Shown: in pieces, positions 2,556-28,980 of the stretch
Layout: every line of letters starts with the position of its first letter
Numbering within the stretch: the first letter of the stretch is position 1
IMG/VR virus record: IMGVR_UViG_3300030117_006748
Span: 1-28,980 of that record
Length of the DNA: 28,980 bases
DNA from: a virus
Strand: one strand, 5' to 3'
Made by a program: the position numbers and the translations under genes
Notes under the pieces: generated by a model
What the model was told of the DNA's origin: nothing
Database searches by the model: none
What the model saw: the letters and a program-made list of their open reading frames with translations, nothing else

Positions 2556-5500
2556 TAGAAACAGGAATTATAAGCAAAGTTAAAATACAAGATGTTATAT
2601 TAAATCAACTTCCTGATTTTATCAAGGAGGAAAGTCCTCTTACAGTTGATTTTTTAAAACAATACTATACCTCCCAAGAATATCAAGGTGGCCCGAGTGA
2701 TATATCTGATAATTTAGAACAATATTTAAATGTTAATAATTTAACACCAGAAGTTATAGTTGATAGCTCCACTACTGTTGGTCTTACTACAGTTGGTGCT
2801 GAGACAATCAAAGTTACTAGCACAAAAGGATTCCCAAATCATTATGGATTATTAAAAATTGGTGATGAAATTATAACGTATACTGATTCTAAATCAGATA
2901 GGTTTATTGGATGTAAACGTGGATTTAGTGGAATCACCAGTTATCATTCGGATACAAATAAGGAAGATTTAGTATTCAGTTCATCATCTGCAACGGAGCA
3001 TGCAGAATCATCTACAATTCAAAATTTAAGTTCTTTATTTTTAAAAGAATTTTATAAAAAATTTAAAACTACATTCTTACCTGGTTTAGAGGAAACAGAT
3101 TTCCAATCAAATTTGGATGTGGGAACTTTTATAGGTGAAGCGAGATCATTATATCAAACAAAAGGTACGGATGAGTCATTTAGAATACTCTTCAATGTCT
3201 TATATGGTATAGATCCCAAAATAATAAATTTGGAAGATAGATTAATAAAACCATCCTTTGCAACTTATGTAAGAAGAAGAATTTGTGTAGCTGAATTGTT
3301 AGAAGGAAATCCTGTTAAACTTAAGGGTCAGTCATTATTAAAAGGATTGACAGGACAAACTCTGTTTAGAAGTGATTTAGATCTCAATATAAATGCTGCA
3401 ATTTCCGAAATTGAACCTTTTGAAAGAATTGATTCTGGAGTGAGTGGCATTACAACGTATTACAAGATTGGTCTATTTGTAGGATATGATGAAAATACAG
3501 ATATAGAGGGTGATTTTGTTGTAGTACCTAATACAAAATCAATTGGGTATGCTACATCAGAGTCTACTGTTATTTCAGTAGATTCTACAATTGGTTTTGG
3601 AGTTACAGGAACTTTATTATCTGGAAATGATACTATAAATTATACCGATAAAACTGTAAATCAATTTTTAAATTGTACTGGTATAACTTCAATAGTACCT
3701 ACACAAAATGTTAGATCTGATATTACATATTTTGGTTTCGAAGATGGTGATTTGAATAAAAAAGTTGTATTAAGATTAACTGGAGTTTTATCAGATTTTA
3801 AACAAACTGAAAAATTAGATGTAGAAGAAGGTGAAATAATTTCAGTGAAGAGTATTGGTGATAAAGTTGAAAATCCAATAATTAATAAAACAAATAAAGA
3901 AACATTTTGTAACTCATGGATTTATAATACTAGTTCTTCATACTTTGTTGATAGAAAAGATGAAGGTAATAATATATTTCTCAAAAGTAAGATTGATAGA
4001 TCTAGTCTTAAAAAAGGAGATAGAGTAGATGTAGTAGATAGAAATTTAGGTGTAACAACAACATCAGCTCCAGTGGAAAATATTGATTCTTCTAATAATT
4101 CAATTACAATAGGTTCAACATTCTCAGGATCAGGAAATATTTACAAGATAAGAAAGCAATTAAACAAAGCTAATAGTATAGGTGCACCAATCGAATATGG
4201 TAATGATGTAATAATATCAGATGTTCTAAATGTATATACTGAAGGTGATAATGCATATGTAACTTCAAACTCCTTACCATCTTTCGTTAGTGATGATTCT
4301 GAATTTTCAAAACAAATTGATATAAACGTAAAAAAATCAGAGATCATTTCTCCCAATAATACTGCTTTTTCTGGTGATAGTGGTGATAAATTAGATTTTA
4401 CAACCATCAAGTTTCCAACTAACGTTAAATTTAAAACTGGTGATAAAGTATTTTACAGTTCTCAAGGAGATACCCTTGTTGGTTTAGAAACAGGAACATA
4501 TTTTGTCAAAGTCGAAAATGTTAACAATCAACCTAGAAAAATTAAATTATTTGGATCACCCTCTGGTATTGATAACAATCAAATCATTACATTTGCTGTA
4601 AGTGAAAATGCGAGTACTCATACTTTCATATTAGATTCACAAAAATCTGGACAAATTGGTGCACAAAAATTAATTAAAAAATTCCCATTAACTCCTAATT
4701 TATCTAATGGAATTGATGAACCAACACCAGTGGGTGAAATTGGAATGTTGGTAAATGGTGTTGAGATAACAAATTACAAGACAAACGATAAAGTATATTT
4801 TGGACCTCTATCATCTATAGATGTGTTAAATGGTGGTGAAGATTTTGATGTAATTAATTTACCTAATATAACAGTTTCTGCTGGTATTGGCACCACTGCA
4901 TTAGTGCAACCTGTTGCTAGTGGTAAGATAGTAGATGTATTTGTAGATCCACAAGATTTTGATATTGATAAGGTTATTTCTCTTAGTGTTACTGGGGGGA
5001 ATGGAAGTGGATGTGTGCTTGAACCAATTACAGGAACAAGATTTAGAGAAAAATTATTCAGTGCACAGATATCAGATGGTAGTTCTGCAGGAATAACAAC
5101 CATCACTCCCAACAATAAAATATCAACTATTATCTTCCCATCAAATCACAATTTCATAAATGGTGAACCAATTATCTATGATTCTAATTTAAATCCAGAA
5201 ATAATTGTTGGAACTGGAACTGATACATTAGTGAATGGAGCAACATATTATCCACAATTTATCAATAGCAAAAGTATAAGATTGTATGAATCTTCATCTG
5301 ATTTATCTGCTGGTATAGGGACAATTGCATTTCATAAGGAATCTGCAGGAACTCATATATTTAAAGTTGGTGTTAAAAATACTCTGTTAGATGTAAAAGT
5401 TATTGATGGTGGGGAAAATTATACAAATAGAAAGTTATTTGTCAAACCAGCAGGTATATCCACATCAACAGATAGTATTAATTTTAAAGATCACGGATTT

Positions 5501-8500
5501 AAAGATGGTGATTTGATTGAATATTCTGGTAATATTTCAGGATTAAGTACAACAAAAAATTATTACATTTTATTTGATAATAATGACTCATTTAGTTTAA
5601 GTGATGTTGGTGTGGGTGCAACAGATATATCAAACTATAATCGTAGGAAGAAAATTGATCTAAAAGATCAAGGCACAGGATTACATCAATTTAAATATCC
5701 TGAAATAACATTAACATCTCAAATTAATGAAATTGTAGGTATTGGCACCACAACTGTCAAAGTTGGATTGACTTCTTCTGTTGAAGCTGTGATAAAGGCA
5801 AGAGGGAGTATTCAGCAGGTTTATTTGTATGAACCTGGTACTGGTTATGGGTCAAGTATAATTAATAATCATAAAAAACCAATTATAACTTTATCAAACG
5901 GTAAGAACGGATCATTAATTCCAATTATTTCAAATGGAAAAATAAAATCAGTAACAGTAAGTTCAGCAGGGAAAGATTATTTTTCAACCCCAGATTTGAA
6001 TATTATAGATCCTGATGGAAAGGGATCTGGTGCTAAAATTAGACCAATTATTAAAAATAATAGACTTGATAGTGTGGTTGTAACAAATGAAGGTTTGGGA
6101 TATTCTGATAATACTTATATAAATGTGGTATCTGCTGGTAAAAATAATTTATTTGACTCACAGGTAAGATCATTAACTATGATCATTGATAATGACAATA
6201 ATCAGTTATTACAAGAATCTTTAAATAAATTAAAATACTCAGTTACAGGTTATAATCAGTCATTTATTGGAACAAAATCCACTGAGGTTGGTATTGGTAA
6301 TTCTGATTTAATAGGTTGGGCTTATGATGGCAATCCAATATATGGATCCCATGGTAATTCAAATCCTCTAGATACATCAAATCTAACAACAAGATTGAGA
6401 TCGGGATACACTAAAAGTGCAAGTAATATTGAAGATAGACCTGATACATCTATATTTGAAGTTGGTGATTTTATTGAAGACTTTAAATTTGAAAATTCTG
6501 GTGATTTGGATGAACACAATGGTAGATTTGAAATAACAAAAGAATTTCCTAATGGAACTTATGTTTATCATGCCACAGTAACTGATCTCAATGTTCCTAC
6601 CTTCCCTTTCTTTATTGGTAATACATTTAGATCAAAATCAATTGATTTTAATTTCAAAAATAATTTACAAACTAATTTTGATTTCAATTCAAATAATTTA
6701 CTTCGAAATACACTCCCATATAAAGTATCTGATGAATTTGCAAACAATGATTTTTTAGTAGAAACAAATGAAATACAAGATCAAAAAATTGAAATTACAT
6801 CTACATCTTCTGGATCAATCACGGGGTTTAATATTATCTCTGGAGGATCTAATTATAAAGTAGGTGAATTTTTAAAATTTGAGGTAGAAAATCAAAAAGA
6901 TGATATACTATCCTTCATCTCTAAAGTAGATGGAAAAAATATATCTTCAATCACAACAGAAATAGAAGAAAATAATAATTCAGTCATTACTTGGTCTGAT
7001 GGAACTATAAACGTATTTACAGAAAAAAATCATAATTTTAAAAATAATGATGTTGTAAGAATATCTAGTCTCTCTAGTGACATAACACCATTAAATAGAT
7101 CTTTCAAAATAGGAGTAACCACTTCAACAACCAATACTATATCTACAATTACTGGATCACCATCAGCTGGATTCACAACTGAAATATTTGTATCTAATAT
7201 ACCTGATTCAGTTTCTGTGGGTAGTAGTATTGGTATTGGAACTGAAACTTTAGGAATACTAAACATATACAGAAATTTAAATATTTTAACTGTAGAAAGA
7301 GATTCTAACCCATCATTTGGAACGACACATCCAAAAGGATCTGATGTTTCATATTTAATCAATAAATTTACAATTGATAAATCTATACCTGTATTTGAAT
7401 CTCAGGTAAATCAAAAAGTATTCTTTAATCCAGCTCAAACAGTGGGATTGGGCACAGATGATGGTACAGAAAATACATTATCTTTCTCATTTGCTGGTAA
7501 AAATATTACAAGAAATGTCCCTGTAAAACAAATATACATCGAAAACCACCCCTTTAAAACAAATCAAAAAATTAAATTTACTGCACCATCAGGTAATGTA
7601 GTAATATCTCATGATAATGGTGGAACTTCTTTCAATTTACCACAAGATTTATTTGTCGTTAATAAAAATATTAACTCAATAGGAATAAAAACAGAAATTA
7701 ATTCTGATGAGGTTCATTTCATAACTGTTCCCACTGTTAGTGAAAATTTACGTGATAAATTTTTATTTGAAACTGTCTTTGATCAGGTAACTGCAAAAGT
7801 TGAAAGAATAAAAACAACAGTAAAAACAACGGAATCTCATGATTTAAAAAATGATGATAATATATCATTATTGGTCAATCCATCATTATCTGTTGGTATT
7901 GGAACATCAACTGCTATTAGAGTATCAAGAGATTTATTAACTGGAAATACTTTAATCAATCCTGTAGGATTTAATTCAACTGGAATTAATACTACGACTA
8001 ATTCTATAAACATTCAAAATCATGAATTTAAAACTGGTGATAAAGTTAAATATGAATCTGATTTGTTACCAGATGGATTAGAAAACAAAAATTATTTTGT
8101 TTATAAAGTTGATGATGACAATTTGAAATTATCTGAAACATTATCAGACGTATCAAAAAATATACCACTCACAGTTGGTATTGGAAGCACAGGTGGATCT
8201 ACACAATCACTAGCTTTAATTAATCCAGAATTACAATCAATTAAAAATAACAATTTAGTTTTTGATCTTTCAGACTCATCTTTAACTGGTTATGAGTTAA
8301 AGATTTATTATGATAATTTCTTTAAAAATGAATTTATTTCTGACGGAAAAAATACTACTTTTAATGTAGTAACATCAATCGCAAATGGTTCAGTAGGTGC
8401 TGCTTTAACCATTGGATATGGAAATAGTTTACCTAATACATTATTTTACAATTTAGAAAAAACAGGATTTATAAGCACATCAGATACAGAGGTGAAAAAT

Positions 8501-11500
8501 TATTCACAAATATCATTTGTTGATAGTGTTTATAGTGGATCCTATGATATAACAGGAGTAGGTGCCACTACTTTTGAAGTATTTTTAAATAATGTTCCAG
8601 AAAAATTAGTTTATAATGCTACAGATGGAGAAATAAAATATAATACAACATCAAAGAACACAAAAGGATCAATAAACTCCATCAATATTATTTCTAGTGG
8701 TTCTAATTTCAAAAAAATTCCTAATTTTGTAGGAGTAGATACTACCTCACAAGGTTCAGGAGCCTCTATATTACCTACTTCTAATAATATCGGAGATGTT
8801 GAAGAAATTAGAATTATTAATGAAGGTTTTGAATATTCTTCAGATAAAACTTTAGAACCAGAAAGTTTAATATCATCAAGTGTTGACATCAAAAATACAA
8901 ACACTTTAGGTATCGTAAGTATTACTCAAGGTGGAGCAAATTATATTGACCCACCAGATATTATAATAGTTGATTCAGACACAGGTGAAGAAATAAGAAC
9001 TGGATTTATAGAACCTGTTATGTTGGAGAATAGTATTTTCTCCGTAAATGTTACTGAAAAACCTATAGGTTTACCATCAAATAAAGTAACTTTAAGAGCA
9101 ATTAATAATACAAATGGTACTGTCATAACAGATGTTGTCTCAAATGGATCTGGTATTTTTACTTGTAAGATAGCAACACCTTCATCAACATTTGCTGTTG
9201 AACCATTTAGTATAGGTGATACTGTTTTTATTGAAGGTATTGAAAAATTTAGTACTGATGGAACTGGATTTAACTCCAAAGACTATGGATTTAAATTACT
9301 AACAGTCTCTAACTATACTAATAATGTACCAGCAGAGGTCACAATAGATGTTTCAGCATTAACATCAAATACAGGAATCGCAAAGACTGTTGTTGAGACT
9401 TTTGCAACTGTTATTAATAAATCTGATTATCCAGAATTTTTCATAACTCAAAATCAATCAACTTTTGAGCTAGGTGAAAAATTAAGAAGAAAAAACAATG
9501 TGGGTAGTTTTTCAGTGGTTCGAGTTGATAATGGTAAGTTGAAAATTTTAGATAGATCAGATCTATTGAGAATTGATGATGTTTTAATTGGAGAAACTTC
9601 AGGTAGTCAATGCACTGTATCGAAAATAAGTAAAAATATTGGTAGATTAAAAACAGATTTTTCTATTTTAAAAAATCTTAATTGGAATGATAATACTGGT
9701 AAATTAAGTGAAGATTTTCAAGTTGTATCTGATAATGATTATTATCAAAATATGTCATATTCAGTTCAAAGTCCAATTGAGTGGAAAAAATTAAGAACTC
9801 CCGTAAATAATTTACTTCACACTAGTGGTATGAAGAATTTTGCTGATACGACTGTGCTTTCTGATGCGGTGGTAGGAGTTGGATCAGACAGTAATGTTAA
9901 TATAGTTATCGATGTAATTAATGAAAAGAGAGTGGATGAAATAAGAAATATTGATCTTGTATCGGATGCTGAACCTATTGTTGACAATACAAGTAGATTT
10001 GTCAAATTTGAAAATATAAGATTAACAGATTTTGTAAGTTGTAAAACTAATGATGTATTAACTATTGATAATATAAATCAAGAATTTACAAATTTACAAG
10101 GAAATGCAAATGAATTTTTAGATATATTTGAATTTTCTAATTCAACATCAAGCAGATTGTTCAATAATTTAATTATAATTACAAAAAGTTCATCTGGAAC
10201 TAATAGAATTCAAATATCAGATTTTATCCTCTTAAGTAATGGGGTAAAAAATATCTTAGTAGAAAAATCTAATTTAATTAACTCTGGGACTGGATTCACT
10301 AATTTAAATGAGGATAATTTTGCTAACTTTACACTGAACAAAGATATTACAGACAAAGTTGTCTCAGGTGTCTCTACAATTGTTGAAACAAACACCCTAA
10401 GATTTGCACCAATTCCTGCAGCTGATGCGGATTATGATTTAAAAATATTCTCAGCACAATTTAATGAAAATACTGTAGGATTTGGATCAACATCTATAGG
10501 ACCTATTGATTTAAATTCATCAAAGCAGTCCTGTACTACAGGAATAACAACAAATATCATTGTTGCTCCACTTAGTGAATTTGAATCATTATATGCCACA
10601 ATACAAATAACTGATGACACAACTAAAGAAATGAATTTAGTTGAGACTTTTGTTTCTCATTCAGGAACTGATACTTTCCTATCAGAAGCATATTTTAATA
10701 CAGATGATAATAAATTATCACTGAATAAATTAGGAATTATAACGTCTAGTATATCAGAAAATAATTTAATATTGAGTTTAGAAAATGATGGTAGTAATAC
10801 TTTAAATTTAAGATCAAAAATTATAGGTATTGGAACAACTGGAGTTTCGAATGGCACATATAGATTCAAAACAACTGGTCAAGCAGATGGTAGTGAAAGA
10901 ACATCAATATATTCTGGTTTATCTTCAACAAACGTTGGAATATCAACATTAATTACTTTAAATGCTAATGGATTTAATGCAATCAAATCTGTTGTAGAGG
11001 TAAGTATTGGAGCATCTAAAGCTATACATGAAGTATTATCTCTTCATGATGGAACAGATGCTTATGTTCAACAATCTGGATCTTTATCAATCACTAAAAA
11101 TAGTTTAACCGAATATGATCCTTCAGTAGGATTTGGAACATTCAGTGCAAATCTGTCTGGATCTAACTTTAGTATTGAGTTTCATCCTGATAATATCACT
11201 GGTATTTCAACAGTTATATCATTAAATCATGCTTTTTATACACAAATTGATGAAGAGAATGATCCTGAAAAATTGATTTATGGTTCAATTACTGAAGATA
11301 ATTCATTCCAATTATATACTTCTAGATTAGGTAATAGAATTGAAAAAACTCAATTTAGAATTAATAACAATTCAATACCTATTTTTGCAAAGGTATTTAA
11401 TCCCTCTGATACTAGTATTCTTGATCCTGCTACTGGAAAATTTAGTATTCAAAATAGTTTCTTTAGAGAGAATGAAGAATTAATCTATAAACCTAAATCC

Positions 11501-14500
11501 TCATTCATAGGTGTTGGGTCAACTCCTATGCAATTTAAAAATGGAACTGCAATTGATGCTTTACCAAGCACAGTATTTGTTAAGAATGTAGGAGCTGGTG
11601 GAACATCCTTCTTTATATCAACAACTAGAGCAGGAACAGCAGTTACTTTTGTAAGTTTAGGTGAAGGAAATGCCCATGAATTTAGCATGGCAAAGGCAAA
11701 TGAAAAAACACTTATTTCAATTGATGATGTAGCACAATATCCCTTAATTAGAAATAATGTCTCACATACATTAAATAGTAATTCTGGTAATGTTGGTTTA
11801 ACTACTACAATAATTCATCTTAGTGGAATTTCCACAGTAAGCACTGACGATATTTTAAAAATAAATGATGAGTTTATGTCAGTGATAAACGTAGGATTTG
11901 CGACGACTGGAGGGGCACCTGTAGGTACATCGGGTACATTTAATACAGTTGAAGTTAAAAGGGCATTTGTGGGCACCTCAGCTACCACACACTCAAATGG
12001 TGATGTTGCGACAATATTTAGAGGTTCTTATAATATTGTTGGTAGAGATATATTCTTTACAAAAGCACCGAGAGGTGATGTCACTAAAACAAAAACAATC
12101 AATAATTTAAATCCACCTACATCTAATTTCTCTGGACGTGTATACCTTAGAAACAATTATGATTCGAATGCAATATATGATGATATATCTGATCAATTTA
12201 CAGGAATTAACTCAACATTTACTTTAAAAGTTGGTGGAGCAAATACAATCGGAATAGGAACTACTGGTGGTAGTGGTATAATGTTTATTAATGGAATATT
12301 CCAATCTCCATCCACTCAGTTTAATACAGGAAAGAATTTCAAAATAATTGAAAGTGGTAGTGGTGCTAGTGGAGTTACCAGTGTTGTATTTACGGGTATT
12401 ACATCAAGTGACGGATCTATATTTTCTTCAAACAATATAAACATGAATGAATTGCCAAGAGGTGGTGTGCCAGTGGCAATCGGAAATACAATCAATGGAT
12501 TAGGATATGCTCCTCTGGTAAATGCTAATGTTAAAGCAATTCATGATGCTGCTGGTGCAGGAGGTATAGGAACCATAGTTGGAGTTGCTTTCAGTGGATC
12601 TGATTTAGTGGTTGAGAATGCTGTTTATAATGGTTCTACAGGAATAATGTCAATTAGAACAAAAGGTGAGCATAAATTCAAAGACTCCAATGATTTTGTA
12701 TTGATTAATAATATAGGTTTTAGCCCCAGTCTTAATATTAAAACATCTGAAATTGAGGTCGTATCTGTAGGTGCTACAAATATTTTCAATATTAGTATTG
12801 GAAAAACTGATACAACATTTAATTATACTGGTTCAGGATCAACTGCTGGTGAAGCATATCCATTCTTCCCTAATTTAACTTTTGGATCTGGATATAATGG
12901 ATTATCACCAATTGGTGTTGCCGTAACTGATTTAGGATATGAACATCGTTTTATATCCGCAAATGCAAATGCTATTACTTTCTCCACTACTGGTGCAACC
13001 ACATATGCACCAACAGATGCTATATATGATCCTGTGACAGGTGTATTACAACTCACCATTGCTAATCATGGATTAGAGGGAGATGGAGAAGATGGTAGTA
13101 ACACTATTAACATAAGAGTTGGAAGTTTATTCTTCTCATGCTCAAGAGATAATTTCCGCACAGTTCATCCATATCCAAGATCAACAAATACAACAGTAGT
13201 TGGTGAAAATCTAAAGATTACAAAAATTAATGATGATATATTCAGTGTAGTAGTAGGTAAAAACGTTGGGAATGGTGCTCAGGTAACTGCAACAGTTGGT
13301 GTAGGGGGAACATTAATATTTGCAGTTGGTGCTGCAGGAGCAGACTATAAAGATCCAATTGTATCTGTATCTCTACCATCTTACTCAAACTTATCTGTAA
13401 CTGGTGTTTCTAGATTAGGATTGGGTGCAACAACTGATACTGGAACAGATTTAAGAGTTAATGCAATTGTAAAACCAGCTACGGGTATTGGATCTACCTT
13501 ATTTGAAATATCCGAATATGAAATTGTTAATAAAGGATTTGGATTTAAAAAAGGTGATGTGGTTGAGGCAGTTGGGTTAGTTACCGCAAAAGGAATGCCC
13601 TCTCTTCTTGAAAAATCAACGTTAACTATAGATAAAATTTATAATGATTCCTTTGCTTTATGGCAGTTTGGTGATTTTGATTACATAGATTCAATAAAAG
13701 ATGAGCAAAATGGAGAAAGAAGTCAATTTGATCTACTTCTTAATAGTCAATTAATTAGTTTTGAACTTGGAAGTACGTTAAATCCTAGCGTTAGAAAAGA
13801 AAATTTATTTTTAGTTGTTATAAATGGAGTGATTCAAGAACCAACTACATCTTATACAATAGTTGGTGGAAACATAATTAGTTTTTCCGAACCACCTGTT
13901 CCTGAAGATGATATCACAATTTTATTCTATAAAGGGACACAAGATGAAGATTCAATAGTAAATTTAAAACAAAAATTAACCATTGAAGAGGGAGATGAGA
14001 TTCAAATAACTCAAGGATTTGGAGTTAAGGGGCAGGGTAAGAGAACTGTATTTAGTTTGGATACATCACAAAAATTGGAAACAAATCCATATTTACTTCA
14101 GGGTGTTAATTCTACAGTAAACAGACCACTTAATCTCATTAAACAAAAAGTAGATAAAATTATTAATAAGAGTCCTGTTTCGAAGAAAAGAGCAAGTATT
14201 GAACCAAGAATAAGTCCTGTTTCTAAGGTAATTGGTGATGTAAAAGCAGGAGATACAGAAATTTATGTTGATAATGCAGATTTATTTAAATATGAGTTTG
14301 CAAACACAGATGAACCTAATCTATCATTCTCTCTATTTACAGATCCATCAGTTAAAATAGGAGCTGCTGCGACATGCACAGTATCAGCTGCTGGTACAAT
14401 CAGTGCTATAACAATTACCGAAGGTGGTTCTGGTTATACATTTGCTCCTTCTATTCAAATCGCACCACCAGTTGGTGGTGGTATAACTGCTACGGGAGAG

Positions 14501-15196
14501 GCATCTGCTGTCAATGGGGTAGTTGTAGGTGCAGATGTCTTTACGATAGGATCTGGTTACACAAGTACAAATCCACCACAAGCGATAATTCGAAAACCAG
14601 CATTCCCTTATGAAAACATCACATTTAAAAATTCAGATGTAGTTGATAATATTCAAAGTAATGTAGGAGTAGTAACTGGTATTGGAACAACAACCACATC
14701 GTCATCAAAATTAGGAATTAAATTTACACTTAGACGTGAAGATGTTAATCGTAATAATTTTGTATTAAAAAGTCCAATAGCAGTAGGAAAACCAATTTAT
14801 ATTTTTGATACTCGTGTTGGATCAGGTGTTGAATCAATTAGTAATAGTGGGTCAGATACTGATGTGGTAGGTATTGGTGGGTCATTTGTTGACAATGTTT
14901 ATATTGTCGAGTCTGTCAGTGATAGTGGATCTGGTACTGGTATAGTAACATGCCTAATTAAATCAAATACAACCACCACTGGTATATCATCATCAGGAAC
15001 TGATAAATTACCTGTGGGTAAATATTCAGTTGGAGTCGTTAAGTCTTTAACTAGAGGATCAAACCCAATATCAATAGGTGTAACTGGTCTTACTGTTGGA
15101 TTGGTAACAGCAACAGGAATATCTACTTTCCCAACATTAAAGAGAAATGGTGGGGAAGATACCTTTGAACAAACTGGATCAATAATACCAGAATAA
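2552..15196 (+). CDS. Giant baseplate wedge protein in the gp7 position, 4,214 residues, multi-repeat, with YHYH-like domain
   Basis: One uninterrupted frame of 12.6 kb lying where T4 encodes gp7 (1,032 residues), between gp6 and gp8, so a role as wedge initiator and baseplate periphery is inferred. Residues 1-280 (KVKIQDVILNQLPDFI start; LFLKEFYKKFKTTFLPG; RSLYQTKGTDESFRILF) resemble the N-terminal domain of large structural proteins at this locus in marine T4-like phages and are the likely baseplate anchor. The rest is beta-rich modules. An EIITYT-type module occurs near residues 90-150, and repeats with NHxFxxGDxVxY near 617-697, 860-940, 973-1050 and 1818-1890. GxGY(T) modules occur near 1088-1215, 2042-2145 and 3949-4020. 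A YHYH-like domain spans about 1255-1355, and an NGVIQEPTTSYTI fibre-type motif lies near residue 3760. GIGTT-like pentapeptides recur throughout. It starts by ATGA overlap with gp6 and has no Shine-Dalgarno, so it is probably translationally coupled. True orthology to T4 gp7 is not proven beyond position. Confidence 0.85.
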   Translation: MIETGIISKVKIQDVILNQLPDFIKEESPLTVDFLKQYYTSQEYQGGPSDISDNLEQYLNVNNLTPEVIVDSSTTVGLTTVGAETIKVTSTKGFPNHYGLLKIGDEIITYTDSKSDRFIGCKRGFSGITSYHSDTNKEDLVFSSSSATEHAESSTIQNLSSLFLKEFYKKFKTTFLPGLEETDFQSNLDVGTFIGEARSLYQTKGTDESFRILFNVLYGIDPKIINLEDRLIKPSFATYVRRRICVAELLEGNPVKLKGQSLLKGLTGQTLFRSDLDLNINAAISEIEPFERIDSGVSGITTYYKIGLFVGYDENTDIEGDFVVVPNTKSIGYATSESTVISVDSTIGFGVTGTLLSGNDTINYTDKTVNQFLNCTGITSIVPTQNVRSDITYFGFEDGDLNKKVVLRLTGVLSDFKQTEKLDVEEGEIISVKSIGDKVENPIINKTNKETFCNSWIYNTSSSYFVDRKDEGNNIFLKSKIDRSSLKKGDRVDVVDRNLGVTTTSAPVENIDSSNNSITIGSTFSGSGNIYKIRKQLNKANSIGAPIEYGNDVIISDVLNVYTEGDNAYVTSNSLPSFVSDDSEFSKQIDINVKKSEIISPNNTAFSGDSGDKLDFTTIKFPTNVKFKTGDKVFYSSQGDTLVGLETGTYFVKVENVNNQPRKIKLFGSPSGIDNNQIITFAVSENASTHTFILDSQKSGQIGAQKLIKKFPLTPNLSNGIDEPTPVGEIGMLVNGVEITNYKTNDKVYFGPLSSIDVLNGGEDFDVINLPNITVSAGIGTTALVQPVASGKIVDVFVDPQDFDIDKVISLSVTGGNGSGCVLEPITGTRFREKLFSAQISDGSSAGITTITPNNKISTIIFPSNHNFINGEPIIYDSNLNPEIIVGTGTDTLVNGATYYPQFINSKSIRLYESSSDLSAGIGTIAFHKESAGTHIFKVGVKNTLLDVKVIDGGENYTNRKLFVKPAGISTSTDSINFKDHGFKDGDLIEYSGNISGLSTTKNYYILFDNNDSFSLSDVGVGATDISNYNRRKKIDLKDQGTGLHQFKYPEITLTSQINEIVGIGTTTVKVGLTSSVEAVIKARGSIQQVYLYEPGTGYGSSIINNHKKPIITLSNGKNGSLIPIISNGKIKSVTVSSAGKDYFSTPDLNIIDPDGKGSGAKIRPIIKNNRLDSVVVTNEGLGYSDNTYINVVSAGKNNLFDSQVRSLTMIIDNDNNQLLQESLNKLKYSVTGYNQSFIGTKSTEVGIGNSDLIGWAYDGNPIYGSHGNSNPLDTSNLTTRLRSGYTKSASNIEDRPDTSIFEVGDFIEDFKFENSGDLDEHNGRFEITKEFPNGTYVYHATVTDLNVPTFPFFIGNTFRSKSIDFNFKNNLQTNFDFNSNNLLRNTLPYKVSDEFANNDFLVETNEIQDQKIEITSTSSGSITGFNIISGGSNYKVGEFLKFEVENQKDDILSFISKVDGKNISSITTEIEENNNSVITWSDGTINVFTEKNHNFKNNDVVRISSLSSDITPLNRSFKIGVTTSTTNTISTITGSPSAGFTTEIFVSNIPDSVSVGSSIGIGTETLGILNIYRNLNILTVERDSNPSFGTTHPKGSDVSYLINKFTIDKSIPVFESQVNQKVFFNPAQTVGLGTDDGTENTLSFSFAGKNITRNVPVKQIYIENHPFKTNQKIKFTAPSGNVVISHDNGGTSFNLPQDLFVVNKNINSIGIKTEINSDEVHFITVPTVSENLRDKFLFETVFDQVTAKVERIKTTVKTTESHDLKNDDNISLLVNPSLSVGIGTSTAIRVSRDLLTGNTLINPVGFNSTGINTTTNSINIQNHEFKTGDKVKYESDLLPDGLENKNYFVYKVDDDNLKLSETLSDVSKNIPLTVGIGSTGGSTQSLALINPELQSIKNNNLVFDLSDSSLTGYELKIYYDNFFKNEFISDGKNTTFNVVTSIANGSVGAALTIGYGNSLPNTLFYNLEKTGFISTSDTEVKNYSQISFVDSVYSGSYDITGVGATTFEVFLNNVPEKLVYNATDGEIKYNTTSKNTKGSINSINIISSGSNFKKIPNFVGVDTTSQGSGASILPTSNNIGDVEEIRIINEGFEYSSDKTLEPESLISSSVDIKNTNTLGIVSITQGGANYIDPPDIIIVDSDTGEEIRTGFIEPVMLENSIFSVNVTEKPIGLPSNKVTLRAINNTNGTVITDVVSNGSGIFTCKIATPSSTFAVEPFSIGDTVFIEGIEKFSTDGTGFNSKDYGFKLLTVSNYTNNVPAEVTIDVSALTSNTGIAKTVVETFATVINKSDYPEFFITQNQSTFELGEKLRRKNNVGSFSVVRVDNGKLKILDRSDLLRIDDVLIGETSGSQCTVSKISKNIGRLKTDFSILKNLNWNDNTGKLSEDFQVVSDNDYYQNMSYSVQSPIEWKKLRTPVNNLLHTSGMKNFADTTVLSDAVVGVGSDSNVNIVIDVINEKRVDEIRNIDLVSDAEPIVDNTSRFVKFENIRLTDFVSCKTNDVLTIDNINQEFTNLQGNANEFLDIFEFSNSTSSRLFNNLIIITKSSSGTNRIQISDFILLSNGVKNILVEKSNLINSGTGFTNLNEDNFANFTLNKDITDKVVSGVSTIVETNTLRFAPIPAADADYDLKIFSAQFNENTVGFGSTSIGPIDLNSSKQSCTTGITTNIIVAPLSEFESLYATIQITDDTTKEMNLVETFVSHSGTDTFLSEAYFNTDDNKLSLNKLGIITSSISENNLILSLENDGSNTLNLRSKIIGIGTTGVSNGTYRFKTTGQADGSERTSIYSGLSSTNVGISTLITLNANGFNAIKSVVEVSIGASKAIHEVLSLHDGTDAYVQQSGSLSITKNSLTEYDPSVGFGTFSANLSGSNFSIEFHPDNITGISTVISLNHAFYTQIDEENDPEKLIYGSITEDNSFQLYTSRLGNRIEKTQFRINNNSIPIFAKVFNPSDTSILDPATGKFSIQNSFFRENEELIYKPKSSFIGVGSTPMQFKNGTAIDALPSTVFVKNVGAGGTSFFISTTRAGTAVTFVSLGEGNAHEFSMAKANEKTLISIDDVAQYPLIRNNVSHTLNSNSGNVGLTTTIIHLSGISTVSTDDILKINDEFMSVINVGFATTGGAPVGTSGTFNTVEVKRAFVGTSATTHSNGDVATIFRGSYNIVGRDIFFTKAPRGDVTKTKTINNLNPPTSNFSGRVYLRNNYDSNAIYDDISDQFTGINSTFTLKVGGANTIGIGTTGGSGIMFINGIFQSPSTQFNTGKNFKIIESGSGASGVTSVVFTGITSSDGSIFSSNNINMNELPRGGVPVAIGNTINGLGYAPLVNANVKAIHDAAGAGGIGTIVGVAFSGSDLVVENAVYNGSTGIMSIRTKGEHKFKDSNDFVLINNIGFSPSLNIKTSEIEVVSVGATNIFNISIGKTDTTFNYTGSGSTAGEAYPFFPNLTFGSGYNGLSPIGVAVTDLGYEHRFISANANAITFSTTGATTYAPTDAIYDPVTGVLQLTIANHGLEGDGEDGSNTINIRVGSLFFSCSRDNFRTVHPYPRSTNTTVVGENLKITKINDDIFSVVVGKNVGNGAQVTATVGVGGTLIFAVGAAGADYKDPIVSVSLPSYSNLSVTGVSRLGLGATTDTGTDLRVNAIVKPATGIGSTLFEISEYEIVNKGFGFKKGDVVEAVGLVTAKGMPSLLEKSTLTIDKIYNDSFALWQFGDFDYIDSIKDEQNGERSQFDLLLNSQLISFELGSTLNPSVRKENLFLVVINGVIQEPTTSYTIVGGNIISFSEPPVPEDDITILFYKGTQDEDSIVNLKQKLTIEEGDEIQITQGFGVKGQGKRTVFSLDTSQKLETNPYLLQGVNSTVNRPLNLIKQKVDKIINKSPVSKKRASIEPRISPVSKVIGDVKAGDTEIYVDNADLFKYEFANTDEPNLSFSLFTDPSVKIGAAATCTVSAAGTISAITITEGGSGYTFAPSIQIAPPVGGGITATGEASAVNGVVVGADVFTIGSGYTSTNPPQAIIRKPAFPYENITFKNSDVVDNIQSNVGVVTGIGTTTTSSSKLGIKFTLRREDVNRNNFVLKSPIAVGKPIYIFDTRVGSGVESISNSGSDTDVVGIGGSFVDNVYIVESVSDSGSGTGIVTCLIKSNTTTTGISSSGTDKLPVGKYSVGVVKSLTRGSNPISIGVTGLTVGLVTATGISTFPTLKRNGGEDTFEQTGSIIPE
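4400..5700 (+). repeat. Three diverged copies of an ~80-residue beta module (NHxFxxGDxVxY type)
   Basis: At protein level, copies start near 4400, 5129 and 5470. Each opens with a strand, then an FKTGDKVFY, FINGEPIIY or FKDGDLIEY turn, then a YY-containing strand and a ligand-like KLF, RLYES or SLSD strand, and ends with a THTF, THIF or LHQF motif. A related copy is at about 8003-8220 (HEFKTGDKVKY). Copies are too diverged to align as DNA, indicating old duplication. Confidence 0.6.
5812..6135 (+). repeat. Triple GxGY(T) beta module in the gp7-position protein
   Basis: Three successive copies of the pattern V-x-V-x-x-x-G-x-G-Y: YLYEPGTGYGSS, VTVSSAGKDYFSTPDLNI and VVVTNEGLGYSDNTYINV. Each is followed by a polar loop with GKxGS- or GKGSGAK-like sequence. 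Spacing is about 40-45 residues. Same module type as in gp8, the DUF4815-like protein and gp14. Confidence 0.65.
6311..6640 (+). other. YHYH-like domain inside the giant protein
   Basis: Residues about 1254-1360 carry, in order, GWAYDGNPIYG, then LDEHNGRFEITKEFPNGTY, VYHATV and FPFFIGNTF. This is the order of landmarks in the YHYH domain family (GWALDGxPIYGP, LDECNG, TYHYHxT, YPYxxGC). The cysteines are replaced by other residues and the YHYH itself reads YVYH. The YHYH family function is not established. Recognition is by eye and needs a profile search. Confidence 0.65.
8671..8960 (+). repeat. Second triple GxGY-type beta module block in the gp7-position protein
   Basis: Copies read INIISSGSNFKKIPNF, IRIINEGFEYSSDKTL and VSITQGGANYIDPPDIII, spaced about 40 residues apart, with a GSGAS loop between the first two. 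The third is the best match to the GxxYxxPPxIxI consensus. Confidence 0.6.
14386..14600 (+). repeat. C-terminal tandem GSGYT modules in the gp7-position protein
   Basis: Two close copies: ITITEGGSGYTFAPSIQI followed by a GGGITATGEASAV linker, then VFTIGSGYTSTNPPQAII. These are the clearest consensus copies in this gene and closely resemble those inserted in gp14. They lie near residues 3949-4020, about 200 residues from the C-terminus. Confidence 0.7.
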
Positions 15197-24438: not shown

Positions 24439-24777
24439 ATGGCCGCTGTATTTGTTTCAAATTTAATTATAAACTCTGGATCTTCTTTTGAGCAAACATT
24501 TGATTTGGCAAAATCAGATGATTCAGGTCCATTAAATTTGGATAATGCTACAGTTACTTCACAATTTAGAAAACATGCTGGCAGTACAACCAAACATGAT
24601 TTTACTACCACAAAGGATAGTGAAACTGAAGGAAAATTAACCATATCACTCACAGCAGTGCAATCTGCTGTTCCTAAACCAGGCAGATATGTTTATGATA
24701 TTATAATTACTGAAGGATCAAAAATAACCAGAGTGGTCGAAGGGTCTGTTCTAATAAGAGAAGGAGTAACTAGATAA
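24439..24777 (+). CDS. Small beta-sandwich-like virion protein, 112 residues
   Basis: The sequence opens with VSNLIINSGSSFEQTFDL and continues with alternating strands (PLNLDNATVTSQFRKHAGS, TEGKLTISLTAVQSAVPKP, GRYVYDIIITEGSKITRVV), ending EGSVLIREGVTR. The pattern 'fibre-like strand, LTxA/LDxxTVxxQxRKH, then PGRYVYDxxIT and RVVEGxVxIxxxVTR' recurs in small phage structural proteins and suggests an immunoglobulin- or BppU-N-terminal-like beta sandwich; this is inference from pattern only. It has no signal peptide or membrane segment. It is first behind the third promoter, and its stop overlaps the next start by one base (TAATG). AGGA at 24416-24419 is too far upstream to be a good ribosome site. 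Likely a decoration, baseplate or fibre-adaptor part; exact role unknown. Confidence 0.85.
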   Translation: MAAVFVSNLIINSGSSFEQTFDLAKSDDSGPLNLDNATVTSQFRKHAGSTTKHDFTTTKDSETEGKLTISLTAVQSAVPKPGRYVYDIIITEGSKITRVVEGSVLIREGVTR

Positions 24778-25205
24778 TGGCAGTTAAAGTCAATGTTGTT
24801 CAAAATCCTCTTAAAGTAAGAGTTGGGCAAACAGACGCCGTAAAAGTTATATCATCTAATTCTGGTGGTGGTGGAACTTCAGAAACAGCAATAAATGTTA
24901 TTGGTGGTATAGCCTCAGTAACTCAATTAAATGTATCTGGTATCTCAACACTTGCTGGAATTGCATCAGTTACTGGTGAAACATTATTTACAAATCAATT
25001 TAGTGTATCTGGTGTTTCTTCATTTACAGGTATTGTAACAACCACCAGTGATTTATATGTTGGGGGTGATTTATTCGTAGGTGATGATATCATTTTTGAT
25101 GAAGTCACTGGAAGAAATCTAAATATCACAGGTATAGGAACTGTTGGTACATTAAATGTGACTGGAACATTAACTGCTGGATTAATCGATGGAGGCTCGT
25201 TCTGA
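24777..25205 (+). CDS. Small fibre-like repeat protein, 142 residues
   Basis: After a short N-terminal domain (VKVNVVQNPLKVRVGQTDA, VKVISS) and a GGGG hinge near residue 30, the protein consists of short valine/glycine strand repeats. Examples are LNVSGISTLAGIASVTG, FSVSGVSSFTGIVTTTS, LYVGGDLFVGDDI and LNITGIGTVGTLNVTG. It ends in LTAGLIDGGSF. This x-V-x-G-x-(S/L)-x-x-x-G periodicity is typical of trimeric beta-helix or beta-prism shafts in phage fibres and fibritin-like proteins. It lies where T4 encodes gp11, gp12 and fibritin, so a short fibre, collar or whisker-like role is plausible but unproven; at 142 residues it is far shorter than T4 gp12 (527) or fibritin (487). AAGGAG at 24761-24766 gives a good ribosome site 10 bases before the ATG, unlike most genes here. 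Confidence 0.82.
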   Translation: MAVKVNVVQNPLKVRVGQTDAVKVISSNSGGGGTSETAINVIGGIASVTQLNVSGISTLAGIASVTGETLFTNQFSVSGVSSFTGIVTTTSDLYVGGDLFVGDDIIFDEVTGRNLNITGIGTVGTLNVTGTLTAGLIDGGSF

Positions 25206-26050
25206 TGGCAAAACCAAGTAGTAGACAAGAATTAATTGATTACTGTTTTCGTAAATTAGGTGCACCAGTATTAGAAATTAATGTGGATGATGATCAGGCA
25301 GATGATCTGGTGGATGATGCTCTTCAATTATTTGGGGAGAGGCATTTTGATGGTATTGAAAGAATGTATCTTAAGTATGAATTAACACAGGAGGATATCG
25401 ATAGAGGTAAAGCTGCTAATACTGATGGTGTGGGGATTGTTACTACCACTGGAAATTCTACAAATGTAAGTGGTTTAGGAACTGTTACTTCAAACTTTTA
25501 TGAAACATCCAACTTCATTCAAGTTCCTGATGCAGTTGTAGGGATAGATAGAATATTTAAATTTGATACAAGTTCCATATCAGGTGGAATGTTTAGTATT
25601 AAATATCAGTTATTTTTGAATGATCTTTATTACTTTAACTCTGTAAATCTTTTACAATATTCTATGACTAAGAGATATCTTGAAGATATTGATTTCTTAC
25701 TAACCACTGATAAACAAATAAGATTTAACAAAAGACAAAACAGATTATATTTAGATATTGATTGGAAAGCTCAGGAAGTTGGAACATTTTTAGTGATTCA
25801 ATGTGATAGAATTTTAGATCCTGATAACTTTACTGGTGTCTATAATGATAGTTTCTTGAAACTTTATCTTACATCCTTGATAAAAAGGCAATGGGGTCAA
25901 AATTTAATTAAGTTTCAGGGAGTCAAATTACCTGGTGGACTTGAATTAAATGGTAGACAAATATACGATGATGCAGAAAGAGAGTTGGAAAGCATTAGAT
26001 CAAGACTTATATCCGAATATGAATTACCTCCTCTTGATTTTATAGGATAA
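25205..26050 (+). CDS. gp13: Neck protein gp13
   Basis: 281 residues against 309 in T4. gp13 joins gp14 to form the neck that closes the filled head and connects it to the tail. The opening SSRQELIDYCFRKLGAPVL, then EINVDDDQADDLVDDALQ and ERHFDGIERMYLKYELTQ, is the standard start of gp13 proteins in marine T4-like phages. The rest contains VVGIDRIFKF, a LLQYSMTKRYLEDIDFLL helix region, FNKRQNRLYLDIDW and a C-terminal helical part (FLKLYLTSLIKRQWGQNLI; DDAERELESIRSRL), all expected for the family. GGAGG at 25191-25195 lies nine bases before the ATG, the strongest ribosome site in the window. The start overlaps the previous stop (TGATG); gp14 begins four bases after its own stop. Confidence 0.92.
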   Translation: MAKPSSRQELIDYCFRKLGAPVLEINVDDDQADDLVDDALQLFGERHFDGIERMYLKYELTQEDIDRGKAANTDGVGIVTTTGNSTNVSGLGTVTSNFYETSNFIQVPDAVVGIDRIFKFDTSSISGGMFSIKYQLFLNDLYYFNSVNLLQYSMTKRYLEDIDFLLTTDKQIRFNKRQNRLYLDIDWKAQEVGTFLVIQCDRILDPDNFTGVYNDSFLKLYLTSLIKRQWGQNLIKFQGVKLPGGLELNGRQIYDDAERELESIRSRLISEYELPPLDFIG

Positions 26051-26054
26051 TAAT

Positions 26055-27488
26055 ATGGCATTAAATCCCTTTTTTCTACAAGGATCACAAAGTGAGCAGA
26101 GACTTGTTCAGGATTTGGTTAATGAACAGTTAAAAATTTATGGTGTTGAGGTAAAATATTTACCAAGAAGAATTGTAAACAAAGATAATATTTTTACAGA
26201 AATACAATCATCTAGATTTAGTGATAATTTTTCAATAGAGGCATATGTAAACACATATGAAGGGTATGGTGGTGCTGGTGATATCATGACCAAATTTGGC
26301 ATGAGTTTAAAAGATGAATTAATAGTTACAATATCAAAAGAAAGATTTGAAGATTTTATAGCACCATTCTTGCAAACTTTACCAGAGGGAGAGATAGAAG
26401 TTGCCACAAGACCTAGTGAGGGGGATTTAATATTTTTCCCACTAGGACAAAGAATATTTGAAATAAAGTTTGTAGAACACGAAAAACCTTTTTATCAGTT
26501 AGGTAAAAATTATGTCTATGAACTTCGTTGCGAACTCTTTGAACTTGAAGATGAAATGGGAGGTTGGGATCAACTTAGCACCACGACAGAAGAAATTGAT
26601 GATGTTCTTGTGGATCAGGGATATATCACTTCACTTAAACTGATATCAATCGGTTCTACTGCAACTTTAGGAGTAACCACTACATCTGGTTATGTTCGTA
26701 AAATAATCCTTAATGATGATGGATTTGATTACACAAAAACACCAACTGTATCAATTAGTGCTGCCCCTGCTGGAGGAACAAATGCTACTGCGGTGGCAAT
26801 CACAACATCAATCAATGGTGTAAATTCAGTCAAAGAAATTTTACTAACAAACACGGGAGCAGGATATACAGTCACTCCCACTGTCACAATTGTAAGTGCT
26901 GCGTCAACAATACTCGGTATAGGTTCAACTACATTTGGTGTAGGAGCTGCTGCGACAGCATCACTAGTTACAGATAGTGTTGGTATTAAATCTATTTCTA
27001 TTATATCAAGTGGTAGTGGATATCCTACTGCACCTACCTTATTCTTTAATACACCATCTTCTGGCATAAACACTGCAACAGGTAGAGTTTTAATTAATGA
27101 TACAAATAATACTGTTTCACAAGTTCTCATATCTAATGCAGGTATAGGATACACTTCTGGAACAGGAATTGCTACAGTATCTCCACCACCAGTTATAACA
27201 GGCATCGGAACATATCAATTTAATGAATTGGTTACAGGTTCAATATCTGGAGCAAAAGGAAGAGTTAAGAGTTGGAATGTAACAACTAATACACTCAAAT
27301 TAGGAACCACTGACGGAACTTTTGTAGCAGGTGATGTAATTGTAGGAGCAGCTTCTTCTGCTAATTATACTGTTGATTTCATTGAATCTGCAGAATTTTC
27401 TGATAAATATGATAAAAGTGATGAAATTGAGACAGAAGCTGATGCTATTATTGATTTCTCAGAAAATAATCCATTTGGTACATTCTAA
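26055..27488 (+). CDS. gp14: Neck protein gp14 with an internal repeat insertion
   Basis: 477 residues, nearly twice T4 gp14 (256). gp14 binds gp13 at the neck. Residues 1-180 are the family core: NPFFLQGSQSEQRLVQDLV, VEVKYLPRRIVNKD, then DIMTKFGMSLKDELIVTIS and GDLIFFPLGQRIFEIKFVE, ending in the YELRCELFELEDE strand. The family C-terminus reappears at the end as ADAIIDFSENNPFGTF. Between them, about residues 190-440, sits a foreign-looking beta block: four GxGY(T) modules (26695-27180), then an SGAKGRVKSWNVTTNTLKL module (GTFVAGDVIVGAAS). The block leaves both core ends in frame, as expected for a surface loop. AGGA at 26044-26047 is a modest ribosome site. The stop overlaps the gp15 start by one base. 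Confidence 0.9.
   Translation: MALNPFFLQGSQSEQRLVQDLVNEQLKIYGVEVKYLPRRIVNKDNIFTEIQSSRFSDNFSIEAYVNTYEGYGGAGDIMTKFGMSLKDELIVTISKERFEDFIAPFLQTLPEGEIEVATRPSEGDLIFFPLGQRIFEIKFVEHEKPFYQLGKNYVYELRCELFELEDEMGGWDQLSTTTEEIDDVLVDQGYITSLKLISIGSTATLGVTTTSGYVRKIILNDDGFDYTKTPTVSISAAPAGGTNATAVAITTSINGVNSVKEILLTNTGAGYTVTPTVTIVSAASTILGIGSTTFGVGAAATASLVTDSVGIKSISIISSGSGYPTAPTLFFNTPSSGINTATGRVLINDTNNTVSQVLISNAGIGYTSGTGIATVSPPPVITGIGTYQFNELVTGSISGAKGRVKSWNVTTNTLKLGTTDGTFVAGDVIVGAASSANYTVDFIESAEFSDKYDKSDEIETEADAIIDFSENNPFGTF
26695..27180 (+). repeat. Four GxGY(T)xxPxVxI modules inserted in gp14
   Basis: Copies read IILNDDGFDYTKTPTVSI, ILLTNTGAGYTVTPTVTI, ISIISSGSGYPTAPTLFF and VLISNAGIGYTSGTGIAT. They start near 26695, 26828, 26985 and 27114, so the period is about 43-52 residues. 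Linkers are rich in Gly, Ala, Ser and Thr (GGTNATAVAITTS, LGIGSTTFGVGAAATAS). The first three match the consensus best; the fourth has lost the proline. Confidence 0.75.
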
Positions 27489-28285
27489 TGTTAGGAACTT
27501 ACTACTATCATGAAATAATTCGAAAGACAATCGTTTCTTTTGGAACATTGTTTAATGCCATCAGTATTCGACATGATGATAAATCAGGAAATACTTATAG
27601 TGAATTAAAAGTTCCTTTAGCATATGGTCCTTCACAAAAATTTCTTGCAAGATTAGAACAACAGGCAGATTTAAATAAACCTGTTGCTATTACTCTTCCT
27701 CGAATGTCATTTGAAATGAATAATGTTTCATATGATTCATCAAGAAAAACTGGAGTTACACAAACATTCAAAGCATCTGATGGTAATAATGTAAAAAAGG
27801 TTTTTATGCCTGTTCCATACAACATTGGATTTGAACTGAATATTTTAGCTAAATTGAACGATGATGCTCTACAAATTATCGAACAAATTTTACCATATTT
27901 TCAACCTTCATTCAATCTTACAGTTGATTTAGTTGCATCAATAGGAGAAAAGAGAGATATACCAATAGTATTAGATAGTATTAATTTTCAAGATGATTAT
28001 GAGGGTGATTTCTCAACAAGAAGAGCATTGATATATACGTTAGGATTTACGGCAAAAACATACTTATTCGGACCTGTAGCAGAATCCTCCTCTGGACTTA
28101 TCAAAAAAGTTCAAGTTGATTACAGTACAAATACTGATATTAAAAATTCTAAACGTGAAGTTCGTTACACTGTTACACCTGATCCTGTAAGTGCTGGTCC
28201 TGATGATGATTTTGGATTTAGTGAAACTACATCATTCTTCTCTGATTCTAAATCTTATAGTCCTACAAGACAAACTGATATCTAA
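27488..28285 (+). CDS. gp15: Tail completion / sheath terminator protein gp15
   Basis: 265 residues, close to T4 gp15 (272). gp15 forms the hexamer that caps the completed tail above the sheath and tube and docks the tail to the neck. Diagnostic sequence is the start MLGTYYYHEIIRKTIVSFG and TLFNAISIRHDD, then KVPLAYGPSQKFLARLEQQ, LPRMSFEMNNVSYDS and VPYNIGFELNILAKLNDDA. After these come the IIEQILPYFQPSFNLTV segment and DDYEGDFSTRRALIYTLGF. These are well-known conserved blocks of the family in their normal order. It begins inside the gp14 stop (TAATG) without a clear Shine-Dalgarno, consistent with coupling. The C-terminal 40 residues (SAGPDDDFGFSETTSFFSD) are acidic and serine-rich and probably exposed. 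The stop overlaps the gp16 start by one base. Confidence 0.94.
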   Translation: MLGTYYYHEIIRKTIVSFGTLFNAISIRHDDKSGNTYSELKVPLAYGPSQKFLARLEQQADLNKPVAITLPRMSFEMNNVSYDSSRKTGVTQTFKASDGNNVKKVFMPVPYNIGFELNILAKLNDDALQIIEQILPYFQPSFNLTVDLVASIGEKRDIPIVLDSINFQDDYEGDFSTRRALIYTLGFTAKTYLFGPVAESSSGLIKKVQVDYSTNTDIKNSKREVRYTVTPDPVSAGPDDDFGFSETTSFFSDSKSYSPTRQTDI

Positions 28286-28740
28286 TGACTAACTATGATC
28301 CGATTGACGAGGCTTTAAATATCAAGTCCGAAATAATTCCAACACCAGAGGATGTTGTATCTAAGAAAAAAAATCAACTTAAAAAAGTTGATGAGAATGA
28401 TATTGGTAAAGATTATGAATATACGAGAGGTAATCTTTACTCATTAATTGAGAAAGGACAGGAAGCAATTAATGGTATCATGGAAGTGGCAGGTGAGAGT
28501 GCTAGTCCAAGAGCATATGAAGTTGCTGGACAGTTGATTAAGTCAGTTGCAGACACAACTGATAAACTTATGGATTTGCAAAAAAAGGTTAAGGAGGTTG
28601 AAGAAGATACAAATAAAACAACAAACAATGTCACAAATAATGCATTATTTGTTGGATCTACTTCAGAATTATCAAAAATGCTGAAGAAAGGTTTTCTAAA
28701 TAATAAAGAGGCACCGAATCCTAAGAATGAAACAGTGTAA
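28285..28740 (+). CDS. gp16: Small terminase subunit gp16
   Basis: 151 residues against 164 in T4. The small terminase forms a ring of subunits that stimulates the large terminase gp17 ATPase and nuclease and takes part in recognising DNA for packaging. The N-terminal 45 residues are charged (VVSKKKNQLKKVDENDIG). The core DYEYTRGNLYSLIEKGQEA, INGIMEVAGESASPRAYEV and AGQLIKSVADTTDKLMDLQ, then KKVKEVEED, is strongly helical with a long coiled-coil central part (about residues 55-112), as in T4 gp16. The C-terminus NNALFVGSTSELSKMLKKG is typical of the marine relatives. It follows gp15 with a one-base overlap and no Shine-Dalgarno. Finding gp16 after gp15 predicts gp17 beyond the right edge. Confidence 0.92.
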   Translation: MTNYDPIDEALNIKSEIIPTPEDVVSKKKNQLKKVDENDIGKDYEYTRGNLYSLIEKGQEAINGIMEVAGESASPRAYEVAGQLIKSVADTTDKLMDLQKKVKEVEEDTNKTTNNVTNNALFVGSTSELSKMLKKGFLNNKEAPNPKNETV

Positions 28741-28980
28741 ATCTGGATACTATTATTGTTACGACGAAAAAAAATGTAAGCCTATTCCAAAGGGTTATCG
28801 AATAGGTTACGGTGGTTATCTGCGTCATGAAAAAGATGATGACAGTAAAAATGGTAACAAGAAAAATGGTAACGGAGGAAATGGAAATGGTAGCAATGGT
28901 GGTAATGGTAATGGTAATGGTTCTGGCGGGAATGGCGGTGGCAATGGTGGATCCAACGGGGGTAATGGAGGAGGAATGAG
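28727..28980 (+). CDS. Cys-motif plus Gly/Asn-rich protein (3'-partial)
   Basis: An ATG at 28727, the first after an in-frame stop at 28697-28699, opens a frame that runs off the right edge after 84 codons and overlaps the end of gp16 by 14 bases. The N-terminus carries three cysteines at residues 4, 11 and 17 in the compact motif CKSGYYYCYDEKKCKPIP, followed by KGYRIGYGGYLR and a short acidic run. From residue 42 it is a Gly/Asn/Ser low-complexity tract. I recall the C-x6-C-x5-C-KPIP-KGY motif in marine T4-like phage structural or prohead proteins, but its function is not known to me. AAAGAGG at 28705-28711 lies 15 bases upstream, a rather long distance. Coding is supported by the open frame, the motif and the operon position; the Cys cluster could bind a metal or form disulphides. 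Confidence 0.78.
   Translation, partial: MKQCKSGYYYCYDEKKCKPIPKGYRIGYGGYLRHEKDDDSKNGNKKNGNGGNGNGSNGGNGNGNGSGGNGGGNGGSNGGNGGGM
28850..28980 (+). repeat. Low-complexity AAT/GGT trinucleotide tract encoding Gly/Asn repeats
   Basis: From 28850 to the window end the DNA is nearly all aat, ggt, ggn and aac codons, coding for runs such as NGNGGNGNGSNGGNGNG with occasional serine. The tract is more G-rich than the surrounding sequence and locally near-tandem (aatggt). It presumably forms a flexible linker and could vary in length by slippage. Confidence 0.8.

Follow-up and report, generated by a model that had tools for sequence, protein, structure and literature searches.

A GxGY-module array enlarges the gp14 neck protein of a marine T4-like phage and its relatives and is probably an external decoration of the neck

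Introduction

The gp14 gene in the viral DNA analysed here (28,980 nucleotides of IMG/VR record IMGVR_UViG_3300030117_006748, hereafter the window) encodes a protein of 477 aa versus 256 aa in T4. This raises the question of what the additional residues are, whether they are peculiar to this phage, where on the virion they would lie and what they might do there. An initial annotation had read them as a repeat insertion, possibly one that decorates the neck in place of whiskers.

Results

The window encodes a T4-type stopper with an inserted array

The window covers the genes from baseplate to neck of a T4-like marine phage, namely a baseplate wedge gene, gp6, a giant gp7 (4214 aa), gp8, a 2454-aa DUF4815 protein, two small genes and gp13-gp16. 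By PHROG annotation of the neighbours, the 13-14-15-16 gene order is that of T4. The gp13 adaptor (25205-26050, + strand; 281 aa; phrog_211, alignment) precedes gp14 (26055-27488, + strand, as are all its parts below), which is followed by the gp15 tail terminator (27488-28285, + strand; 265 aa; phrog_227, alignment), a protein without insertion. The gene at 24439-24777 encodes 112 aa; its product matches phrog_3304 (L-shaped tail fiber protein assembly) at E 1.2e-28, with a weak hit to Pfam LtfC at E 0.0059. After gp16, a Gly/Asn-rich ORF beginning MKQCKSGYYYCYDEKKCKPIP (28727-28978) is cut by the window end; ORFs resembling it were seen in L005 and L072.

The translated gp14 frame was identified as the neck/stopper protein by Pfam T4_neck-protein (PF11649; residues 3-162, E 7.5e-31, 107.9 bits versus a cut-off of 25), by phrog_460 (head closure Hc2, E 9.7e-122) and, in a PDB sequence search, by the solved T4 gp14 chains 9mkb and 9lu4 (residues 3-160, E 7e-23). 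The stopper core occupies residues 1-185 (26055-26609), as delimited by alignment to T4 gp14. In structural comparisons, in which the modelled core has low pLDDT, the core model matched 9lu4_M (VIA-align Z 9.1, rmsd 4.0 Å, 99 residues) and the gp14 model matched 9lu5_M (Foldseek E 1.5e-6). At the other end, alignment defines a conserved C-terminal tail, residues 450-477 (27402-27485), which closes with DFSENNPFGTF and has a mean pairwise identity of 0.64. The family start and the family end (DFxExNPFG) are both present, as the initial annotation had stated.

The protein is indeed enlarged by a repeat block. The array spans residues 204-388 (26664-27218), is predicted to be a rigid domain and is missing from the gp14s of S-PM2 and S-TIM4. 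A module HMM, built from gp14 sequences, found exactly four modules of ~42 aa each in the window gp14: module 1 (residues 213-255, 26691-26819; 54.2 bits), module 2 (residues 258-310, 26826-26984; 38.2 bits), module 3 (residues 311-352, 26985-27110; 38.2 bits) and module 4 (residues 354-396, 27114-27242; 28.4 bits), whose envelope enters the start of the second part of a C-terminal barrel. None of 1,000 shuffles of the stretch contained a module of at least 10 bits (best 9.8). The count of four GxGY(T)xxPxVxI modules given initially therefore stands; the motif does not hold throughout, since GFDY stands in module 1 and the PxVxI part is missing from module 4. The insertion had also been put at ~250 residues and proves shorter, at ~185 aa for the insertion proper (~204-388). 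No Pfam family matched the module at E≤1, and the array profile, run against PDB sequences, gave no value lower than E 0.24.

What surrounds the array is a small barrel. Its first strand (~residues 186-200, 26610-26654) comes from a match to domain 3 of eIF2-gamma with the array skipped, and its remainder, which we call the 'VKSW' barrel (residues 389-449, 27219-27401), has predicted strands and is also present in short, array-free gp14s. The structural alignment with eIF2-gamma domain 3 runs from residue 187 to residue 449 of the model, aligns just 76-80 residues and reaches Z ~6, which may reflect merely a common arrangement. Because residues 187-449 minus the array fit an eIF2-gamma domain-3-like barrel, the array is located in a loop of that barrel. 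The SGAKGRVKSW element, previously counted as a module of the insertion, belongs to the barrel instead: alignment shows it to be native to the module-free gp14s of S-PM2 (292 aa) and S-TIM4 (310 aa). A second insertion point exists in the gp14s of syn9, ACG-2014d and S-H35, which carry two modules in the barrel's next loop.

The array is predicted to fold as a separate domain under purifying selection

Modelled alone with AlphaFold2, the array formed a single rigid all-beta body (pLDDT 93.1, pTM 0.85). In the full-length model most of it had pLDDT ~84-96; the core was modelled poorly from a shallow alignment, and with its pLDDT low the way in which core and array are angled to each other was left uninterpreted. 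Searches of the PDB for fold neighbours of the array model gave a best Foldseek E of 0.73 and a best VIA-align Z of 3.4 (77 residues, rmsd 3.2). The repeats are thus predicted outside the core fold, as had been proposed.

Charged residues make up 6% of the array versus 28% of the core. The dN/dS ratio is ~0.20 for the array, ~0.05 for the core and ~0.08 for the C-terminal tail. The low charge and these ratios are what would be expected for an exposed domain that is less constrained yet purified. Conservation was 0.59 for module 1, 0.56 for module 2, 0.35 for module 3 and 0.44 for module 4. Across divergent gp14s the four modules stay in register, with invariant glycines and tyrosines.

Module arrays are widespread in marine relatives

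Full-length relatives of the window gp14 occur on many independent contigs, ruling out a one-off insertion or an assembly artefact. A gp14 match was found in 2,324 INPHARED records; in 148 of these, P-SSM2 among them, it extends over 80% or more of the query, and enterobacterial gp14s are without the block; it is not a feature of most T4-like gp14s. The array alone matched 53 INPHARED records, all with marine or cyanobacterial phage names; in IMG/VR, gp14 was matched by at least 600 stretches. Module numbers among 247 complete gp14s were 0 (26 proteins), 2 (80), 3 (9), 4 (129) and 6 (3), counts that are not frequencies, as the proteins came from scans with three chosen queries (long, medium and short) and some contigs were fetched twice. 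The gp14 of the isolate S-8S56 has eight modules. Its gp13 (L342:3263-4381) has 372 aa with ~90 extra residues in the N-terminal half, making it a third neck protein with an insertion.

These data show that the array is real and lineage-wide and not unique to the window phage. It is atypical relative to T4 only, and the length of the window gp14 is normal in the marine lineage. For marine T4-likes, the premise that neck proteins do not usually host repeats is incorrect. A literature search, limited to papers outside subscription, found none describing the gp14 array.

In a core-based tree, length classes were clustered far beyond shuffled labels, yet nine changes were required; row L054 (335 aa, 'short' in the tree), probably cut by a contig end, was left out as evidence. 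S-TIM4 falls inside the two-module clade, which implies module loss.

The module also occurs outside gp14. In each of the tested marine phages the gp14 array profile matched other open frames, among them gp7 and giant fibre-type genes, whereas no T4 open frame was matched. Within the window, extra copies were found inside gp7 (14354-14641, + strand; E 1.8e-13), with further matches at 8648-9094 and 5720-5893. Besides its scattered GxGY modules, the window gp7 (2552-15196; 4214 aa) has a YHYH domain at residues 1250-1344 (PF14240, E 8e-23).

Some relatives carry lectin-like domains within the array

A Laminin_G_3 domain (PF13385; Pfam cut-off 27.6 bits) lies inside the array of the gp14s of Sf-FS3 (31.2 bits) and S-SSM7 (26.6 bits in one search, 31.2 in another). 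The window's own gp14 (G000) had no PF13385 match.

Some gp14s, of ~750-775 aa, hold a ~200-aa jellyroll-like domain inside the array (L049:3001-5259, L340 ~2283-4634, L332:301-2592 and L333:301-2589). A gp15 from Mosig EXVC030M, a SAR11 phage (pelagiphage), has 532 aa (L338:5092-6690), with a [module-jellyroll-module] cassette at its end; this jellyroll and that of the L049 gp14 share 86% identity; the Mosig gp14 itself is without array. The jellyroll domain is, judged by sequence, common to neighbouring neck proteins, gp14 in L049 and gp15 in Mosig. An IMG/VR scan for it returned two loci. The L049/L340/Mosig domain had a weak laminin match (E 0.08) and no match in Pfam or PHROGs, and hhalign did not join it to the S-SSM7/Sf-FS3 domain (7%); it may at most be called LamG-like.

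The array probably lies outside the channel, next to gp15

In T4, residues 178-256 of gp14 are disordered until the tail joins, whereupon they bind residues 203-245 of gp15 (PMC12270204). Since the array and barrel occupy this gp15-binding part of gp14, they should lie outside the channel, adjoining gp15. Dimensions in the T4 and phage 812 papers point the same way, as six ~185-aa arrays would be too big for a neck channel of 10-40 Å. Structures of marine T4-like necks were not found, and we infer the placement of the array outside the channel.

A ~75-aa extra domain at the gp15 end that binds gp14 in T4 was present in 6 of 8 loci with an extra-large gp14 versus 2 of 117 with an ordinary long gp14, in a set whose loci are not independent, some having been re-fetched from the same contig; few lineages underlie this co-variation of gp14 and gp15. 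Both this domain and the cassette seen in L049 gp14 and Mosig gp15 agree with a position of the array next to gp15. The extra domain was noted in L072, L055, L150, L144, L201, L341, L342, L343 and L344.

External neck elements are known in phage 812, where the stopper has an external beta-sandwich and separate decoration proteins span the same joints (PMC12886913). In phage 812 particles without the decoration proteins, necks were often broken (PMC12886913).

Fibritin is absent with and without the array

Fibritin_C (PF07921) had no match in the window, itself just a 29-kb fragment, or in six marine genomes, and the T4 control matched at E 2.4e-35, in line with the initial annotation's remark that no fibritin gene is seen here. 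Cyanomyoviruses have been reported to be without wac, and S-PM2 to be without a collar by electron microscopy (PMC2984593). The loss of fibritin is not tied to the array, because S-PM2 and Mosig, which are module-free in gp14, also lack Fibritin_C.

T4 fibritin binds domain III of gp13 (residues 190-239; PMC12270204). Of the 50 T4 residues of this segment, 23 are left in an alignment of the window gp13 and four marine gp13s. The wac position, immediately before gp13, is taken by a fibre-like gene (24777-25205, + strand; 142 aa, with PHROG baseplate/fibre hits), whose product ends in LIDGGSF. Among its relatives the body is variable and the C-terminal IDGG-x-[FY] motif is kept in many. A neck fibre, if there is any, may come from this gene.

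Discussion

Taken together, our results suggest that the array is probably a built-in external decoration of the gp14-gp15 joint, able to carry further domains. On balance, gp14 would seem to be a T4-type stopper of the ordinary kind in which the C-terminal part has turned into an outward-facing decoration. Following its core, the protein would form a small beta-barrel, with the rigid four-module GxGY body in one barrel loop. Six array copies, by analogy with the T4 hexamer, would encircle the neck-tail joint beside gp15, where they would most likely stabilise the junction of stopper and terminator and could form an expandable scaffold that accepts added domains. The sequences and models show a modular architecture that is widespread and variable, a rigid predicted fold and, in some relatives, a ConA/laminin-G-type domain; that the array is exposed on the virion, touches gp15 and reinforces the joint is inferred. 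The existence of short gp14s without modules (S-PM2, Mosig) is a counterpoint to this model, and the array is therefore not required for a sound neck in general.

A live rival, though an unlikely one, is that the array serves as an auxiliary glycan adhesin, which would attach to polysaccharide of the host or of marine origin at the neck, either by itself or together with a lectin-like domain. The same module in gp7 and giant fibre-type genes, the Laminin_G_3 domain inside some gp14 arrays and the divergence of module 3, the highest of the four, would suit such a role; but the window gp14 is without a LamG domain, the array's dN/dS is low, with no sign of diversifying selection over the domain as a whole, and in cyanophage A-1(L) the carbohydrate-binding module of a neck fibre did not bind its host (PMC10966104).

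It is quite improbable that the array is an evolutionary passenger, a mobile structural module that recombination has carried from one virion gene to another and that an exposed loop tolerates although it does nothing specific. The several module copies in each marine phage genome, the apparent loss in S-TIM4 within a module-bearing clade and the two insertion sites in the gp14 barrel speak for this reading, whereas purifying selection on the array and the conserved register of its modules, with their invariant residues, speak against it. We regard as similarly doubtful a broader scenario in which the fibritin collar of marine T4-likes gave way to an evolvable neck display ring independent of fibritin, with gp14 GxGY arms, gp15 tails, swapped lectin-like cassettes and a glycan-binding surface of its own.

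That the arrays replace fibritin as a whisker or collar substitute, taking over tail-fibre retention and attachment sensing, fits their location at the neck, the absence of Fibritin_C from the window and six marine genomes and the reported lack of wac in cyanomyoviruses but is very unlikely and not supported, as fibritin docks on gp13 and not on gp14, its docking segment is truncated in all marine gp13s aligned, S-PM2 and Mosig have neither fibritin nor a gp14 array, the array is a compact domain and not a long trimeric coiled coil, and a fibre-like gene takes the wac position. Of the earlier proposal that the array decorates the neck or collar, the whisker role thus falls away, and external neck decoration is likely, given a separate domain on the C-terminal side, the side by which T4 gp14 binds gp15.

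The neck is usually viewed as conserved plumbing. In some very common ocean viruses, a core neck part would bear a rigid arm on the outside that varies between phages, and some relatives have lectin-type domains on these gp14 arms. Should the arm secure the head-tail joint or make contact with host sugars, this would help to explain how these phages cope without collar and whiskers. The fold of the array is confidently predicted and no convincing solved counterpart was found; as the module is repeated through the largest cyanophage virion proteins, one structure would inform many genes.

Among known systems, T4 fibritin (gpwac) resembles the array in neck location only, being a trimeric coiled coil on gp13 that has no sequence or architectural relation to it. 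In the neck of phage 812, the stopper gp97 has an external beta domain, and the decorations gp164 and gp56 bridge the adaptor-stopper-terminator joints (PMC12886913). The phage 812 decorations, however, are separate proteins for which GxGY modules are not described, whereas in the window the modules are built into gp14. T4 gp14 (PDB 9mkb, 9lu4-9lu7) shares the core (residues 3-160), the stopper-loop segment, the 13-14-15-16 order and a C-terminal E-x-x-PF-type motif, but has a ~79-residue C-terminal arm without modules where the window gp14 has a barrel with a 185-aa inserted array. The medium-form gp14s of syn9 and ACG-2014d agree with it in core, barrel, module type and C-terminus and differ in having just two modules, in the barrel's next loop, instead of four. 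Finally, the gp14s of P-SSM2 (470 aa) and other long Kyanoviridae proteins (phrog_460) are 51% identical to it over the full length, with four modules at the same positions and the same C-terminus, and differ by ordinary sequence divergence alone; the window gp14 is a new member of this long Kyanoviridae gp14 group.
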